64,000 nt of DNA. Origin: Spirochaetes bacterium ADurb.Bin218 (GTDB taxonomy: Bacteria; Spirochaetota; UBA4802; UBA5550). The stretch is taken from the NCBI GenBank assembly GCA_002069965.1, contig MWCI01000001.1:1-64000 (forward strand), written 5' to 3'. Position 1 is the first letter of the stretch, and each line of letters starts with the position of its first letter. This document shows positions 22,099 through 45,737 of the stretch, piece by piece. Position numbers and translations under genes: made by a program. The notes beneath the pieces are model-generated. The model did not search any database. It had not been told where the DNA came from and saw only the letters and a program-made list of their open reading frames with translations.

Positions 22099-25000
22099 TC
22101 ATTTTTGTGATTTTTTCTTTTTGCCTAATTCTTCTTGAACTATTGCCTTAATTTCATTATAAAGATTTTGTTTTATTTCTGTGAGGATATCGCTTTTTAC
22201 ACATGTCTCAATTTCTTTTTCAATTTCCTCTACAGTAGGCTCTTTCTCAGGAATCTCTACATCCTGATTTTTCTTAAATATAAGGAATCTGAGATCAGCG
22301 AAAGTTACATATAAAATTGGAGTGGCAAAGAGTGTGATTAATGTTCCAAAAAAAAGACCCCAGGAGAGAGATATAGCCATTGGAATAAGAAAGGGATCAT
22401 ATCCACCAATACCATAGGCAGTTGGAATAAGGCCAAAAAAAGTTGTGATTGTGGTTAAAAATATTGGTCTAAGTCTTGTTGGGGCGGCACTTAACGTGGC
22501 CTCAAGAGGTGCTGCGCCTTCAAGCCGTTTTACTCTTATAAAGTCAATCATGACAATGGAATCATTTACTACAACCCCTGCAAGTCCCACAACGCCCATA
22601 AGGGCCATGAAAGAAAGTGGCATTCCGTGAAAGAAAAATATCCATACTATACCTGCCAGTGTTAAAGGAATAACACCTATTATAATGAATGGATGGGAAA
22701 GTGAGCGGAAGATCCACACAAGTATGATATATATGCCAAGGACTGCTACTACAAAGGATTTAAGGAGGCTTGTCATTGATTCTGATGTATCCTTAAATTC
22801 TCCTTCATAGGAAATAGTATACCCCTGATATTTGTCCTCAATACCTGCAAATTTCTCTTTTAATAATCTATTTACAGAAACAGATGTAACTCCCTTTGCA
22901 TTTTCATCTATCTCTGCTGTTACGTTTATTACTCTCCGCCAATTTTTTCTTTTAATAACAGATATGCCTTTAGCATTTTCATCAAAGGAGACTACTTCCG
23001 TAATTGGAACTAAATTGCCCAGTCTGTTTGCAATTTTTACGTCTTTTATGGAATTTATATTTTGTCTTAGTTCCTCTGGAAATATTACTCTTATATCTAT
23101 CTCTTCGTCAGTCCTTTTTATTTTTGTTGCAACTGATCCTTCAAAGCATGACCGAATTGTTGTGGCAATATCAAAGACTGTTATTCCAGCCTGAGCTGCC
23201 CGTTCTTCTTTAACAAAAATTCTAAGCTCATTTTTATATTCTTCATAGTCATCCTGAATGTCTTTTAATCCATTGATAGTAACAAGATATTTTTTAAATT
23301 GCTCTGATAACTCTTTAAGAACTGCAAAATCATCACCCTTGATTGATATATTTACAGCTTTACCCACAGGGGGACCTGTTTTCACCATGGAGAATTCAAC
23401 CTTTTTAAATTCCTTTACATATATATTAGATTTTTCTCTTATTGTATCCAATATCTCATTGGCGCTTCTTTCCCTCTGATTAAAAGGTGTAAGGTAAACC
23501 ATTATAATTCCATAATTGGCACCGTGTTTGGCGTAAGGGTCATTGGGATTTTCTTGAATAATCCCGGCCTTTGTTGTAAAAGTATCAAGCTCTCCCTTTG
23601 GCAACTCCATTATTACCTTTTCAATTAGACTCAGTTTTTTAGTCATATCCTGCACTGTTGTGCCTGTTGCAGCCTCTGCCTTAATTGTGAGAACCTCAAC
23701 CCCACCCTGGGGGAACAAAATGAGTTTCATAAACTTAGATGCAAATACTAAGGATCCTATAAAAAAAACAGTAATAATTACAATTGCTATGTATTTGCGT
23801 GACAGAACAAAGGAGAGCATGTTTCTGTATCTGTCATTTATTTTGCGGAATATTTTAGATTCCTTGTCTATGGAGCTATCTTTATGGATCTTGTTTAGTT
23901 TTTCCAACTCATAAATGTGTGAAGGGAGTATAAACATACATTCAAGCCATGATGCTGTAAGAGCCACTATTACCACAGCAGGCAAAGACCACATGAATTT
24001 GCCCATAATCCCTTTCATGAACATCAAAGGAGCAAAGGCTATTATTGTAGTAAGCACTGTCCCTGCAACGGGAGCTATAACCTCCATTGTTCCTTGCAAC
24101 ACCGCATCTTTTAGTTTTTCACCCTCTTCTATGTGGCGATATATGTTTTCCGATACCACTATAGCATCATCAACAAGCATACCAAGAACAAGTATAAGCC
24201 CAAACATGGACATGAGATTTATACTGAGATCTACATATCCCATCCAGATAAAAGTTATAAACATTGCAAAGGGAATGCCAAGAGCTGTTACAATTGCAAT
24301 TCTCCACCCGAGAGTTATAAAGAGAGTAACACATACAAGTAAAAAGCCAACAATTCCGTTGTTGATTAAGACATTGAGTCTTCTTTTCACATAATAAGAG
24401 AGGTCGTTAAATTCTGAGATAGTGTAGTTGGAGGGGAGTATTTTTTTAAAATTTTCTATCTCACCATTAACCTGGTCTACTGTTTTTATTATGTCTGCAG
24501 ATTCCTTTTTTACCACAGTTAGAGTTATGGATTTTTCCCCAAGAGTTTTGTTTATAATTGTTTCTTCAGCAAAGGAGTCTTTTATTTTTGCAACATCTCC
24601 CACTCTTACCCAATATCCTGTGTCATTTGCCCTGATTAAGACCTTGCCAATATCATCGGTATTTTGCACCTCTCCAATGGTTCTTATAAGAAACTCACCT
24701 CGATTTGTTTTTATAACACCACCGGGGAAATTGATGTTTTTTTAGCTAAGGCATTTATCACTTCATTTATGGCCACATGGAGAAATTGCAGCTTTTCAGG
24801 AACAATCTCAACAATCATTTCCCGATCTCTGTAGCCCTTTTTATCAATTTTACCAACAGTTGGCAGTTCAAGAAGACGGTCCTCTAAAATTTTCGCATAC
24901 CTGCGCAGTTCAAATTCATCCTTATCGCTTTTAATTCCATCTTTGTTTATGATCGATACCTCAAGGACAGGGGTTGAGGCTGTATTGAGTTCAATAAATT

Positions 25001-25382
25001 CAGGATCCTCAGCATCTTCTGGTAAGTCTGTTACTTTATCAAGAGCATCTCTTATATCGCTTATAGTTTTTTCTTTATCACGGGCATCTGGGTCTACTTT
25101 TATTGCAATTGATGATCTTGCCTCCAGTGAATTGCCATGAATTTCCTCAATTCCATCAATTTCTTTCATTTTTGTTTCGATGGGTATAGTTACATACTTC
25201 TCAACATCCTCAGCAGTTGCCCCTGGATATACAGTAAGTATAACTACCCAGTCAAAATCTACCTTAGGGAAGGCTTCTCTTTTAGCAGTAAACATAAAGA
25301 GAAGGCCAGAGATTAAAATTGCAATGGATATTATATTAACAAGTAAGGGCTGTTCAGCAAAATATCTTATAATTCTTCTCAT
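22099..25382 (-). pseudogene. RND-family efflux transporter, single-base frameshift
   Basis: Two minus-strand frames make one AcrB/HAE-type pump of about 1,090 aa. The N-terminal frame (25382-24711) gives TM1 and the first porter half, ending early after EVINALAKK. The second (through 22099) continues with IRTIGEV, RND motif GLILVLGMLVDDAIVVSENI with the proton-relay Asp pair, and 11 more TM helices. Inserting one A in the A7 run at 24743-24737 restores AKKNINFPGG and joins the frames exactly, so this is a frameshift, not two genes. It could be a real mutation, a sequence error, or -1 slippage on the A run. No membrane-fusion or outer-membrane partner gene is adjacent. DedA follows. Confidence 0.85.
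24737..24743 (-). other. Frameshift site: A7 slippery run in the RND gene
   Basis: On the coding strand the sequence is GCT AAA AAA ACA TCA, in frame with the N-terminal half. Slipping back one base gives GCT AAA AAA AAC ATC AAT TTC, which is exactly the expected continuation (AKKNINF). The zero frame stops 24 bases later at TAA (24713-24711). Confidence 0.85.
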
Positions 25383-40255: not shown

Positions 40256-41332
40256 ATGAGAAATTACCTATCCACAAGGTGGGGAATAATTTTCACCGGT
40301 GCTGTCATTGGCGTAATTGCTGTTACCTTACAAAAGTTAGGTAATCCTGCCAACATGGGGATTTGTGTCGCATGCTTTGAGAGGGATATGGCTGGTTCTC
40401 TTGGATTGCACAGGGCTGAGGTAGTTCAGTACATGAGACCAGAAATAGCAGGTCTTGTCCTGGGATCATTTTTAGTTGCTTTAGTTAAAAAGGAGTATCA
40501 GCCCAGAGGTGGTTCTTCCACTATTATAAGGTTTTTTCTTGGTGTTTTCGCCATGATTGGTGCTTTGGTTTTTCTTGGCTGCCCATGGAGAGCTTTACTG
40601 AGGTTTTCTGGTGGGGATTGGAATGCAATTGCAGGATTACTTGGTCTTGCAATTGGTATTGCCATAGGTGTTGCCTTCTTGAAAAATGGTTATAATCTTG
40701 GAAGGAGTTATAAGCTTAAAAAAAGTGCAGGATGGGTTTTCCCTGCTTTTATGGCTGCTCTTGTTATAATGGTAGCCCTTAACTTCAGAGTATCAGAAAC
40801 AGGCCCACTGTTTTTCAGTGAAAAAGGCCCTGGTTCTCAGCATGCACCTCTTATTATAAGCATTATAGCAGGGATTATTATAGGAATTCTTGCTCAAAGG
40901 AGTAGGTTTTGCACAATGGGTTCCATAAGAGATATCATACTAGCGAAGGACTTCCATCTCGCAAGCGGAGTCATAGCTCTTGTGATAAGTGCTTTTGTAT
41001 TTAATTTTCTATATGGTCAGTTTAAACCAGGATTTGAGGGCCAGCCTATTGCTCATACTGCCCATATATGGAATTTTGCTGGCATGGTCCTTGCAGGGCT
41101 TGCCTTTGCACTTGCTGGAGGGTGTCCTGGACGACAACTGATTCTCTCTGGTGAAGGAGACTCTGATGCTGCAGTTTTTGTAATGGGTATGATAGTTGGT
41201 GCAGGCATATCTCATAATTTCATGCTGGCAAGCTCTCCTGCAGGAGTAGGTGCCTTTGGGCCAGCTGCAGTTGCCATTGGTCTGATTTTTTGCCTGATCA
41301 TTGGCTTTACAATGAGAGAAAAGGTTTCCTAA
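40256..41332 (+). CDS. yedE: YedE-type selenium-associated membrane transporter
   Basis: The 358-aa YeeE/YedE family protein has about 10 membrane helices. Conserved Cys motifs lie in the membrane: NMGICVACFERDMAG, FLGCPWRALLR, RSRFCTMGSIRD and GGCPGRQLILSGEGD. The length and the two-half layout fit the branch seen in selenium-using organisms (seleno-YedE), proposed to import a selenium or sulfur compound. AAAGGGG precedes ATG 40256. The following TusA/YedF-like gene starts 9 bases after its stop, and DUF3343 and selD follow, which supports the selenium assignment. Confidence 0.88.
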   Translation: MRNYLSTRWGIIFTGAVIGVIAVTLQKLGNPANMGICVACFERDMAGSLGLHRAEVVQYMRPEIAGLVLGSFLVALVKKEYQPRGGSSTIIRFFLGVFAMIGALVFLGCPWRALLRFSGGDWNAIAGLLGLAIGIAIGVAFLKNGYNLGRSYKLKKSAGWVFPAFMAALVIMVALNFRVSETGPLFFSEKGPGSQHAPLIISIIAGIIIGILAQRSRFCTMGSIRDIILAKDFHLASGVIALVISAFVFNFLYGQFKPGFEGQPIAHTAHIWNFAGMVLAGLAFALAGGCPGRQLILSGEGDSDAAVFVMGMIVGAGISHNFMLASSPAGVGAFGPAAVAIGLIFCLIIGFTMREKVS

Positions 41333-41341
41333 GGAGGAATT

Positions 41342-41554
41342 ATGAGCGATAAAATCGATGCAAGAGGATTATCCTGCCCGCAACCTGTTGTGCTCACACA
41401 AAAGGCAATTAAGGATGGAAAATCTAATTTTGAAATACTTGTGGACACAGAGGTTTCCAGAGAAAATGTTCTGCGCTGTCTGGAAAAAAATAATTTCAAT
41501 GCAGCAGTCTCAGAAGATGGAGATATATTTATAATTAAAGCTTCAAAGAAATAA
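41342..41554 (+). CDS. TusA/YedF-like sulfur (selenium) carrier protein
   Basis: This 70-aa protein with the SirA/TusA fold has the signature DARGLSCPQPVVLTQKAI, whose Cys carries persulfide (or perselenide) in characterised relatives. It equals the N-terminal half of YedF; the C-terminal half is absent here. AAGGAGG precedes ATG 41342, 9 bases from yedE. It is probably the partner that receives the atom imported by YedE and passes it on towards SelD or sulfur-dependent targets (inference). Confidence 0.88.
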   Translation: MSDKIDARGLSCPQPVVLTQKAIKDGKSNFEILVDTEVSRENVLRCLEKNNFNAAVSEDGDIFIIKASKK

Positions 41555-41592: not shown

Positions 41593-41826
41593 ATGAATTC
41601 TGCAACTAATATGTATAGTGTAGTTTTATTCCATTCCACAAACTATGCCATATGGGCATCCAATATTTTGAAAAGGAATTCTGTGGAGCATAAAATGATT
41701 CCTGTCCCAAGACATCTAAGCTCAGATTGTGGCTATTGTGTTCGTTTTTTGTCAAAGGACAGAGATATTGTTTATGACCTCCTGATGAACAATGGAGTTC
41801 TATTTGACAAAATAGAAGAAATTTGA
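41593..41826 (+). CDS. DUF3343 protein (putative Se/S carrier-like)
   Basis: The 77-aa protein has the family core SVVLFHSTNYAIWASNIL and PVPRHLSSDCGYCVRF (two Cys, C-x2-C, near residue 46). DUF3343 proteins are found together with YedE and SelD in selenium-using anaerobes and are proposed carriers or chaperones. The start is uncertain: ATG 41593 lies directly behind a strong hairpin without a ribosome binding site, and ATG 41611 (MYSVVLFH) fits the family start better. Confidence 0.82.
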   Translation: MNSATNMYSVVLFHSTNYAIWASNILKRNSVEHKMIPVPRHLSSDCGYCVRFLSKDRDIVYDLLMNNGVLFDKIEEI

Positions 41827-41865
41827 TATATTTAAATTTAACATTTTACTTTCAAGGAGAGTGTT

Positions 41866-42933
41866 TTGGCTGAGTCATGTAAACTTGGAGCTCTTAATGC
41901 TCAGAGGCTAACAGAGTCTGTCACAGGTGCAGGTTGAGCTGCAAAAATAGGCCCGGGTGACCTATATGCTGTGATGAGAGATATCAAGATTAAGAGTGAT
42001 AGCAATGTTCTGGTGACTGCCTCCGATAAGGATGATGCAGGTGTTTATCGTATTTCGGATTCAATTGCTCTTATTCAGACTCTGGATTTTATAACTCCAA
42101 TATGCGATGATCCCTTTGAATATGGCCGTATTGCTGCATGTAATTCCCTCTCTGATGTTTATGCAATGGGTGGGAAACCTCTTACTGCTATGAATATAGT
42201 CGGGTTTCCAACAAAAAAATTCTCCCTTGATATTTTGCAAAAAATTCTTGAGGGAGGTCAATCTGTACTTGATGAAGCAGATGTGCGACTTCTTGGAGGC
42301 CACAGCGTTGATGATTCAGAAATGAAATATGGACTTTCTGTCACAGGTGTTGTACATCCTGATAAAATTTTGCGCAATAATTCAATACAGGAAGGGGATG
42401 TTCTTATACTTACAAAAGCTCTCGGAACAGGAATAATAGCCACAGCTATTAAAGCAGACATGGCAGAGGAGTCATCTATTTCGGAATTCATATTGTCCAT
42501 GACAACACTTAACAAATATGCCGCAGAGATTATGTTAAATTTTAATGTTCATGCCTGCACAGATGTGACAGGTTTTGGACTTGCGGGACACCTGCTTGAA
42601 ATGCTTGACGGGACATCTTTAGCTGTAGAAATTAATTCTAATAATTTACCACTTCTTCCACAGGTTGAGGATCTTGCCTCCTATGGGATTGTTCCTGGAG
42701 GTCTATACCGAAATAGGGATTACATAGGAACTGCCATAGATTTTTCATCTGATATAAAGACCATATACAAAGACATAGTTTTTGATCCTCAAACTTCAGG
42801 TGGGTTGCTTATTTCTTTAAATGAGAAGGATGCCTTTGACTTACTGAGCGCATTGCATAGTGCTGGAATAAAAAATGCCTCAATAATAGGTTCTTTTAAA
42901 ACTCTTTCAGATAAAAAGATATATATAAGATAA
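41866..42933 (+). CDS. selD: Selenophosphate synthase with in-frame UGA selenocysteine
   Basis: SelD makes selenophosphate from selenide and ATP. The frame starts at TTG 41866 (AAGGAG upstream), reads 23 codons to an in-frame TGA at 41935-41937, and continues to 42933, giving 355 aa, the family's normal length. Around the TGA the product reads LTESVTGAG-U-AAKIGPGDL, matching the active-site pattern G-x-G-(C/U)-x2-K-I-x-P, so the codon is Sec at the catalytic Cys position, followed by the essential Lys. Downstream, ATP-binding motifs DDAGVYRISD, ALIQTLDFITP, LLGGHSVDD and VTGFGLAGHL are intact. A start at GTG 41971 would lose the active site. A SECIS-like hairpin follows the UGA. Confidence 0.93.
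41935..41969 (+). promoter_or_regulatory. UGA selenocysteine codon and SECIS-like hairpin of selD
   Basis: After TGA (41935-41937), GCA (41941-41943) and ATAGG (41947-41951) pair with CCTAT (41961-41965) and TGC (41967-41969). The apical loop is CCCGGGTGA, with the G-U exposed as in bacterial SECIS elements read by SelB, centred about 20 bases after the UGA. Confidence 0.75.
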
Positions 42934-43110
42934 TATGTTTTGATAGCCTCAGGCTATGAAGTATAGAGTTATAGTTTTATTATGCCTTTTTTGATATAAT
43001 AATTTTATAAATGAATTTAATAATAAAATTTTGAAATAAGGTTGTAATTTTAAAAACAGATTGTAAAATATGTTTTGTCTCAAAATCTTTCAAATAATTT
43101 GGAGGTTTTT

Positions 43111-44847
43111 ATGGATAAGATTCTGCGTATCGATATGGGTGCACCAGGTGGCCCAAAAGTAAAGGTTGATGGATTGGGCTCATATGCCGGACTTGGAGGC
43201 CGTGCCTTGACCTCTATGATTGTGGCTACTGAGGTTGATCCTATGGCAAATCCATTGGGAGCAGAGAACAAACTTGTAATTGCTCCAGGTCTTCTAAGTG
43301 GAACTGCTGCTGCAATGTCTGGCAGAATTTCCATTGGTTGTAAGAGTCCTCTTACTGGGGGGATAAAAGAAGCTAATGCAGGAGGTCAACCAGCTCAGGT
43401 TCTGGCAAGGCTTGGCTATGCTGCTATTGTTCTTGAAGGGAATGCACCGGAGGGTAAACTTTATAAAGTTTATATAAACAAGGAAGGCGTAAAAATCGAA
43501 CCCGCAGATGACTACAAGATGCTTCCAAATTATGATCTCATTGATAAGATAAAGGCTTCTTATGGCGATAAGGTAGCCTGTATATCAATTGGGCCTGCAG
43601 GAGAGATGAAGCTATCTGCTGCATCCATTGCCTGCACAGATATGGAGTTCAGGCCAACAAGACATGCTGGAAGAGGTGGTGTTGGTGCTGTAATGGGTGC
43701 CAAAGGTGTTAAGGTTATCATTCTTGATGATAGTGGACTACAAAATAGGGAACCGAAGGATCCTGAAAAATTCAGGGAAGCAAATAAAAAATGGGTTGAT
43801 GGCCTCAGAAGCCATTCAGTTACAGGAACTGCTCTACCAACTTATGGGACAAATGTTCTTTCAAATATTATAAATGAATCAGGTGGTTTCCCCACAAGAA
43901 ATTTCAAAGAAGGCAAGTTTGAAGGTGTGTCAGCAATAAGCGGTGAGACATTTGCGGACATTGAAACAAAACGCGGTGGCAATCCAACTCATGGCTGCCA
44001 TAGGGGATGTGTAATTAGATGCTCAGGTATATATGTTGACAAAAATGGAAATTATCTCACAAAACAGCCAGAGTATGAGACTGTATGGGCACACGGTGCA
44101 AACTGTGGTATTGATGATCCTGATACAATTGCAATGCTTGATTATCTTGATGATAACTATGGTCTTGATACAATCGATATGGGTGCTGCCATTGGCGTTG
44201 CCATGGAAGCAGGGATTATCCCATTTGGAGATAAAGAAGGAGCTATAAACCTTATCAAAGAAGTGGGCAAGGGCAGCTATCTTGGAAGAATTATTGGAAG
44301 TGGTGCTGCTGTCACAGCAAAGGTCTTTGGAGTGGAAAGGGCTCCTGTTGTTAAAGGTCAGGCAATGCCAGCATACGATCCAAGGGCTATTCAGGGTATA
44401 GGTGTTACCTATGCAACAAGCACAATGGGTGCAGATCATACAGCTGGCTATTGTATTGCTACAAACATTTTAAAGGTTGGAGGCTTTGTTGATCCTCTCA
44501 AGCCAGAGGGTCAGGTTGAGCTTTCCCGTAACCTACAGATAGCAACTGCTGCAGTTGACTCAACTGGTATGTGTCTATTCATTGCCTTTGCTATATTGGA
44601 TCAGCCAGAGACATTCCAGGCTTTGATTGATATGATCAATGCCTTCTATGGACTCAATCTTGATGCTGATGGAGTAGCAGATCTCGGCAAAAAGGTATTG
44701 AAAGCAGAGAGAGATTTTAACAAAAAGGCAGGATTTACTGCAGCTCATGACAGGCTGCCGAAGTATTTCTATACAGAGAAGCTTCCTCCTCATAATGTTG
44801 TATTTCAGGTAACAGATGAGGAGCTTGATAGTGTATTTAATTTTTAG
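43111..44847 (+). CDS. Aldehyde:ferredoxin oxidoreductase family enzyme (tungsten/molybdopterin)
   Basis: The 578-aa protein has AOR N-terminal and C-terminal domains. Visible are the pterin-binding GLGGRALTSMIV, GPAGEMKLSAASIA, RHAGRGGVGAVMGAKGVK, and [4Fe-4S] ligands Cys296, Cys300 and Cys304 (GCHRGCVIRC, spaced C-x3-C-x3-C rather than the usual C-x2-C-x3-C) plus Cys488 (DSTGMC). AORs oxidise aldehydes to acids with ferredoxin, in the cytosol, using W-bis-pterin. The subfamily and aldehyde are not identified. ATG 43111 has GGAGG upstream. The unknown gene and moaD-like gene follow in the same direction. Confidence 0.88.
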   Translation: MDKILRIDMGAPGGPKVKVDGLGSYAGLGGRALTSMIVATEVDPMANPLGAENKLVIAPGLLSGTAAAMSGRISIGCKSPLTGGIKEANAGGQPAQVLARLGYAAIVLEGNAPEGKLYKVYINKEGVKIEPADDYKMLPNYDLIDKIKASYGDKVACISIGPAGEMKLSAASIACTDMEFRPTRHAGRGGVGAVMGAKGVKVIILDDSGLQNREPKDPEKFREANKKWVDGLRSHSVTGTALPTYGTNVLSNIINESGGFPTRNFKEGKFEGVSAISGETFADIETKRGGNPTHGCHRGCVIRCSGIYVDKNGNYLTKQPEYETVWAHGANCGIDDPDTIAMLDYLDDNYGLDTIDMGAAIGVAMEAGIIPFGDKEGAINLIKEVGKGSYLGRIIGSGAAVTAKVFGVERAPVVKGQAMPAYDPRAIQGIGVTYATSTMGADHTAGYCIATNILKVGGFVDPLKPEGQVELSRNLQIATAAVDSTGMCLFIAFAILDQPETFQALIDMINAFYGLNLDADGVADLGKKVLKAERDFNKKAGFTAAHDRLPKYFYTEKLPPHNVVFQVTDEELDSVFNF

Positions 44848-44860
44848 AAGGTAGATAACA

Positions 44861-44897
44861 TTTAGAGGCATTGTGTCTGTGGCACTTTGCCTCTAAA
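44861..44897 (+). other. Inter-gene hairpin between the AOR gene and the next gene
   Basis: TTTAGAGGCA (44861-44870) pairs perfectly with TGCCTCTAAA (44888-44897) around a 17-base loop. No T-run follows, so it is more likely an mRNA-stability or attenuation element than a simple terminator. Confidence 0.6.
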
Positions 44898-44935
44898 GTT
44901 GAAACTATTGCAATATTGCGCCTGGAGGTGCAGCC

Positions 44936-45511
44936 ATGAAAAAGATTTATGCCCCTCTTCCTGAATTACAGGAGATCCTGTTTTATGAACTCCAAAGCGG
45001 TTTTTATGTAATTTCTGTTGATGCGGTTAATATCCGCTCCTTTCTCAAAGATTTTTGTCGTATTGATGAGCAATATATTAAAAATAAAATCAAGACGATT
45101 TTTCACAATGGAAATCCTGTTGATAATATCGATAGTGTAAAGGTAAGGGATGGTTCTGTTCTTGCTCTTTCTGGTGCAATGCCTGGGCTTGTTGGCGCAA
45201 TGATGAGAATACAAAGTCCCTATGCTGTAATGAGAGATACAATTACTGATAAAGGAGGGGAAATTATCTCATCTGGAAAGGATATATGTGTGAGGGTTAA
45301 GCTTTTTAACGTGGTTCTTCATGATTGGGCTATGGATTTTATTTCCAGAGGAGTTATTCTTGATAAGTCCGATCTAATTCGTATATTTAAGAAGCTCCCA
45401 CAGTTAGTTAATAATAATTATTTATTTGACACTGACGAAAAACCAATGACTTTTTCTGATATAGAAAACTCAACCTTTGAAAAATTTATTCTCTGGACAG
45501 AAAGGCCCTAA
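44936..45511 (+). CDS. Unknown protein in the AOR/MoaD cluster
   Basis: I do not recognise this 191-aa soluble protein with certainty. The middle, IFHNGNPVDNIDSVKVRDG followed by LALSGAMPGLVGAMM, has a look of a beta-grasp or pterin-cluster accessory protein, and it lies directly between the AOR gene and a MoaD-like gene, whose start is one base after its stop. GGAGG stands 8 bases ahead of the ATG. It may assist cofactor insertion or sulfuration of the AOR (inference from place only). Confidence 0.7.
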   Translation: MKKIYAPLPELQEILFYELQSGFYVISVDAVNIRSFLKDFCRIDEQYIKNKIKTIFHNGNPVDNIDSVKVRDGSVLALSGAMPGLVGAMMRIQSPYAVMRDTITDKGGEIISSGKDICVRVKLFNVVLHDWAMDFISRGVILDKSDLIRIFKKLPQLVNNNYLFDTDEKPMTFSDIENSTFEKFILWTERP

Positions 45512-45512
45512 G

Positions 45513-45737
45513 ATGAAGCTCAGAGTTAAACTTTTTGCTACCTTAAGGAATGGTCGCTTTGATATAAAGGAGATGGAACTTCCCGATGAATGCAAGGTTT
45601 TGGATTTGATTAAACTTCTAAAAATAGATCAAAAAGATGCAGCCATTATTTTTATCAATGGAATTCATGGAGATTTTGACTCTCTTTTAAAAGAAAATGA
45701 TGAGGTCTCAATCTTTCCTCCTGTTGGTGGTGGATAA
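45513..45737 (+). CDS. MoaD/ThiS-like ubiquitin-fold sulfur carrier
   Basis: The 74-aa beta-grasp protein starts LRVKLFATLRNG and ends DEVSIFPPVGGG with the C-terminal Gly-Gly that carries thiocarboxylate in MoaD. It supplies the dithiolene sulfurs of molybdopterin/tungstopterin. ATG 45513 is chosen over the in-frame ATG at 45477, which lies in the preceding gene. The AOR upstream needs a tungstopterin, so this is probably its dedicated carrier; MoaE and other moa genes are not in the window. Confidence 0.85.
   Translation: MKLRVKLFATLRNGRFDIKEMELPDECKVLDLIKLLKIDQKDAAIIFINGIHGDFDSLLKENDEVSIFPPVGGG

Follow-up and report, generated by a model that had tools for sequence, protein, structure and literature searches.

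A SelD that itself contains selenocysteine (Sec) needs Sec to make the donor from which Sec is made, and this self-dependence is a known curiosity. We take the natural SelD of Aquifex aeolicus to have Sec at its active site, and the chain whose structure was solved to be a Cys form. Among prokaryotic selenoprotein families, Sec-type SelD ranks second in size (PMC13188914, PMC1794560), Sec is always found at this one position of the protein (PMC4561486), and the Sec-type SelD of Treponema denticola has already been listed (PMC1794560). In 2015, comparative genomics connected YedE, SirA-like and DUF3343 proteins with selenium use (PMC5322559). Both the Sec-type enzyme and a neighbourhood of yedE, tusA and Se/S-carrier genes are already known. 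In the stretch of DNA analysed here (64,000 nucleotides of a draft spirochaete genome; below, the window) an earlier note, made from the letters alone, had picked out a selD gene with an in-frame TGA at the catalytic Cys/Sec site. That catch is correct, and judged from sequence the gene very probably encodes a functional Sec-type SelD by ordinary bacterial UGA recoding. The features of the locus are as follows:

40256–41332, + strand: yedE, putative selenium transporter (TIGR04112, 506 bits, cut-off 200)
41342–41554, + strand: TusA-like sulfurtransferase (PF01206)
41593–41826, + strand: putative Se/S carrier protein (PF11823, DUF3343; in the same place in G002, G008 and G011)
41854–41859, + strand: ribosome binding site AAGGAG, 6 nt ahead of the TTG (sequence)
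41866–42933, + strand: selD, predicted Sec-type selenide, water dikinase, 355 aa, TTG start (TIGR00476, alignments with PDB SelD chains, frame)
41935–41937, + strand: in-frame UGA, predicted Sec24, opposite E. coli Cys17 (frame, alignment, TGA shared by 37 SelD genes of the order, the window's included)
41947–41965, + strand: putative SECIS hairpin, degenerate (relatives' hairpin and synonymous constraint; weak in the window)

The frame 41866–42933 holds one single in-frame TGA, codon 24, which lies within G-A-G-U-A-A-K-I, and its product matches the SelD profile TIGR00476 over nearly its full length with 394 bits (curated cut-off 125). Alignment, which the earlier note had proposed as a check, finds the same enzyme in E. 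coli SelD (PDB 3u0o, 3e-68) and a full-length match in A. aeolicus SelD (PDB 2yye, 2zod; 2e-65). A. aeolicus belongs to a phylum other than the window's, and the likeness covers the protein: its chain shares the motif G-C/U-A-A-K-(I/V)-G-P-G-D-L, and U/C and I/V are the only differences between it and the window's G-U-A-A-K-I-G-P-G-D-L. The E. coli enzyme has a Cys (Cys17) where the window has the predicted Sec24, and its second Cys (C19) is Ala in the window. E. coli Lys20, Asp51, Asp68, Asp91 and Asp227 stand opposite identical residues, so that the catalytic Cys/Sec is followed by the conserved Lys and by the aspartates, residues that we presume to have the catalytic and the metal/ATP-binding roles.

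The TTG-initiated frame with a good ribosome binding site that the note had described is borne out by the AAGGAG ahead of it and by the same-genus relative G002, whose TTG at the aligned position supports this start. Under table 11 the first start past the TGA is the GTG at 41971, so a gene caller would, as the note had also said, lose the SelD active site; reading through the TGA thus corrects an annotation that would otherwise cost a key selenium enzyme its catalytic residue. The only other SelD match in the genome is partial (22 bits), and the genome's only SelD is therefore the Sec-type one.

The three genes listed ahead of selD are arranged in the same way in G002, G011 and G008. As in the selenium cluster described previously (PMC5322559), selD is immediately preceded by yedE, a TusA/SirA-like and a DUF3343 gene, but the window's TusA-like protein is a single 70-aa domain rather than the two-domain YedF of the known cluster, and no Sec lyase gene lies between yedE, the TusA-like gene, the DUF3343 gene and selD. 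Downstream of selD (43075–45737) are genes for an aldehyde ferredoxin oxidoreductase, which keeps its place beside selD in G002, a 191-aa protein (44936–45511) for which no Pfam or NCBIfam match was found, and a MoaD/ThiS-like protein.

The Sec machinery that the note had predicted to lie elsewhere in the genome is all there: selA (483 bits) and selB (336 bits) adjoin each other on contig 13, and a tRNA-Sec scores 73.8 bits, over the cut-off, and is called SeC with anticodon tca by ARAGORN. The gene mnmH, whose product makes 2-selenouridine in tRNA, is also present. Two genes for formate dehydrogenase alpha (FdhA; L090, with its TGA at 1882, and L095, on contigs C24 and C45) have a TGA in A-R-(L/I)-U-H-S-A-T-V, the usual Sec place, and in one of these two genes there is a strong hairpin whose loop is GGUCU; since these TGAs stand at the canonical Sec site, the genome holds at least three candidate selenoproteins.

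The TGA was then followed through relatives, where the comparison rests on 37 genes of the order that carry a single TGA at the catalytic Cys site and on Cys homologues among the relatives. A SelD gene with exactly one TGA was present in 37 of the 59 genomes searched (the window's own included), all of them in the window's order, and all 37 genes keep the TGA; the other 36 have 50–69% protein identity. Thus the in-frame UGA is conserved at the catalytic Cys of a known family, and an order of probable spirochaetes, known mostly through draft genomes, depends on a Sec-type SelD. Among these 59, the genomes with a Cys-type SelD belong to family f3 of the order or to other branches of the phylum. 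When the search was widened to 393 genomes of the phylum, more TGA-bearing SelD genes turned up in families f24, f35 and f50. The phylum itself is probably Spirochaetota, to judge from three hits to the flagellar protein FlaA, for which 14 control genomes gave none. In a SelD tree built with the site masked, the Sec/Cys label requires 5 changes, compared with 12 for shuffled labels, and the window's SelD falls in a fully supported clade of 35 Sec-type genes of its order; the SelD of a Desulfurobacterium MAG is of the Sec type too. Treponema denticola resembles the window's organism in being a spirochaete with a Sec-type SelD and Sec-decoding machinery, but the treponeme-like SelD genes of f24 (which we infer to be the Treponema family) sit in another part of the tree, with the motif G-U-G-A-K and the stem AGUGC/GCACU.

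Five genomes have a TGA-bearing SelD match beside a stop-free one: G003, with one Sec-type and one Cys-type SelD, and G287, G339, G353 and G368 of f24, with two matches each, one with and one without the TGA. A Cys-type copy in such genomes could start up the Sec synthesis that the Sec-type copy needs.

The hairpin downstream of the TGA is a less simple matter. Most relatives form, from the codons ATA GGT CCG GNN GAC CTN, a stem-loop AGGUCC-GGN-GGACCU with its loop 16–17 nt past the UGA. All 36 genes use CCG as codon +6, and synonymous constraint peaks at SelD codons +5 to +8 (92nd to 99.6th percentile within the gene), a peak not found at the same codons of Cys-type SelD genes. When codons were resampled synonymously from each gene's own usage, the real hairpin exceeded the expected stability in many relatives (as stable in only 0.3% of the sequences for L021, 0.3% for L051 and 0.8% for L048), while other relatives showed no excess stability (L033, 28%; L037, 37%). 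All 36 other genes of the order satisfy the published bSECIS consensus (PMC13188914), but so do 5 of 13 Cys-type genes, and passing therefore says little; of the Sec-type genes in f24, 3 do not pass. Compensatory covariation was sought within the order and the changes found were one-sided only; a shifted register did no better. In family f5 and G003 the best fold places a loop GGA one codon further downstream, 20 nt from the UGA (L028, L031, L034, L038, L041, L042, L044 and L046 of f5, and L050), as against GGN at 17 nt, as though the SECIS had moved along selD.

In the window itself the letters ATAGG / CCCGGGTGA / CCTAT are present at 41947–41965, as the earlier note had drawn them with a 9-nt loop, but the pairing (−3.3 kcal/mol, z +0.12) folds no better than shuffled sequence (105 of 200 shuffles are at least as stable). 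The bSECIS model asks for a loop of 3–9 nt with a G in its first two positions, a stem of 4–16 bp, a distance of 16–37 nt from the UGA and a minimum free energy ≤ −7.5 kcal/mol (PMC13188914). The drawn loop opens with CC and starts 14 nt past the UGA, so the distance, which the note had called right, is too short by this model. Shuffle folding and the bSECIS model together rule out the drawn pairing as stand-alone evidence for a SECIS, and an Rfam scan of the window yielded no hit above threshold, nor any SECIS-type match near the TGA when E values of up to 10 were allowed. Set in the relatives' register, the stem runs from 41948 to 41964 with loop GGG at 41955–41957, and the letters GGC CCG GGT bring in two mismatches, 41952.41960 (C.A) and 41954.41958 (C.U). 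The 43-nt region folds at −6.7 kcal/mol (z +0.31 against shuffles), 17% of synonymous resamplings are as stable as the window's hairpin, and the bSECIS consensus fails at all folded lengths, the sole failure among the 37 Sec-type genes of the order. It is the relatives' hairpins, not the window's hairpin alone, that support a SECIS at this TGA, and the window's copy is probably homologous to theirs, a SECIS that has degenerated. Its stem may also contain a base-call error. That the degenerate element functions and has been kept inefficient by selection, or that this species' SelB accepts a wider range of hairpins, seems unlikely; if true, an inefficient SECIS would make SelD output follow the supply of Sec-tRNA-Sec, the genome having no SelD other than this Sec-dependent one. 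Together with the one-codon shift in one family, the degenerate copy offers modest material on SECIS drift.

The catalytic-site TGA, its conservation and clade, the Sec machinery, the FdhA TGAs, the relatives' hairpin and the neighbourhood argue for a Sec-type SelD. Against this reading stand the one-sided changes in the order and the window's hairpin, which fails the model and whose 24-nt region (−3.0 kcal/mol) is the weakest among 54 Sec-type SelD genes (next weakest −5.1 kcal/mol). The same weakness is what favours taking the UGA as a true stop, in a gene that has decayed or been shortened to begin at GTG 41971, or as a sequencing error for TGC or TGT; but the frame stays open before and after the TGA, with an intact start, ribosome binding site and catalytic region, 36 divergent genes of the order have the same TGA, and this is the only SelD of a genome that has selA, selB, tRNA-Sec and mnmH. 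We consider stop, decay or error together very improbable, and a read-level error at 41935–41937 is itself very unlikely because of the TGA shared by the 37 genes. An open frame under TGA as a residue does not alone identify the residue, which might be another amino acid inserted by a changed genetic code or by near-cognate readthrough. This is the least probable of the readings: the tRNA-Sec, selA and selB are present, and the further TGA sites found are canonical FdhA Sec sites. A search for genes continued through a TGA elsewhere in the window returned none beyond abutting separate genes, so that TGA is a normal stop here.

In the Sec-type reading, SelA would make Sec-tRNA-Sec from seryl-tRNA and selenophosphate, and SelB with Sec-tRNA-Sec would read the UGA at 41935–41937, guided by the hairpin directly downstream, which would still work in its weakened form. 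Sec24 would then be the active-site residue as SelD converts ATP, selenide and water to selenophosphate, and this would supply SelA, through it SelD itself and the formate dehydrogenases, as well as MnmH.

Elsewhere in the window, an RND-type efflux transporter gene (22099–25382, − strand) lies in two frames, split near 24750, which may reflect a natural frameshift or one introduced by the assembly.
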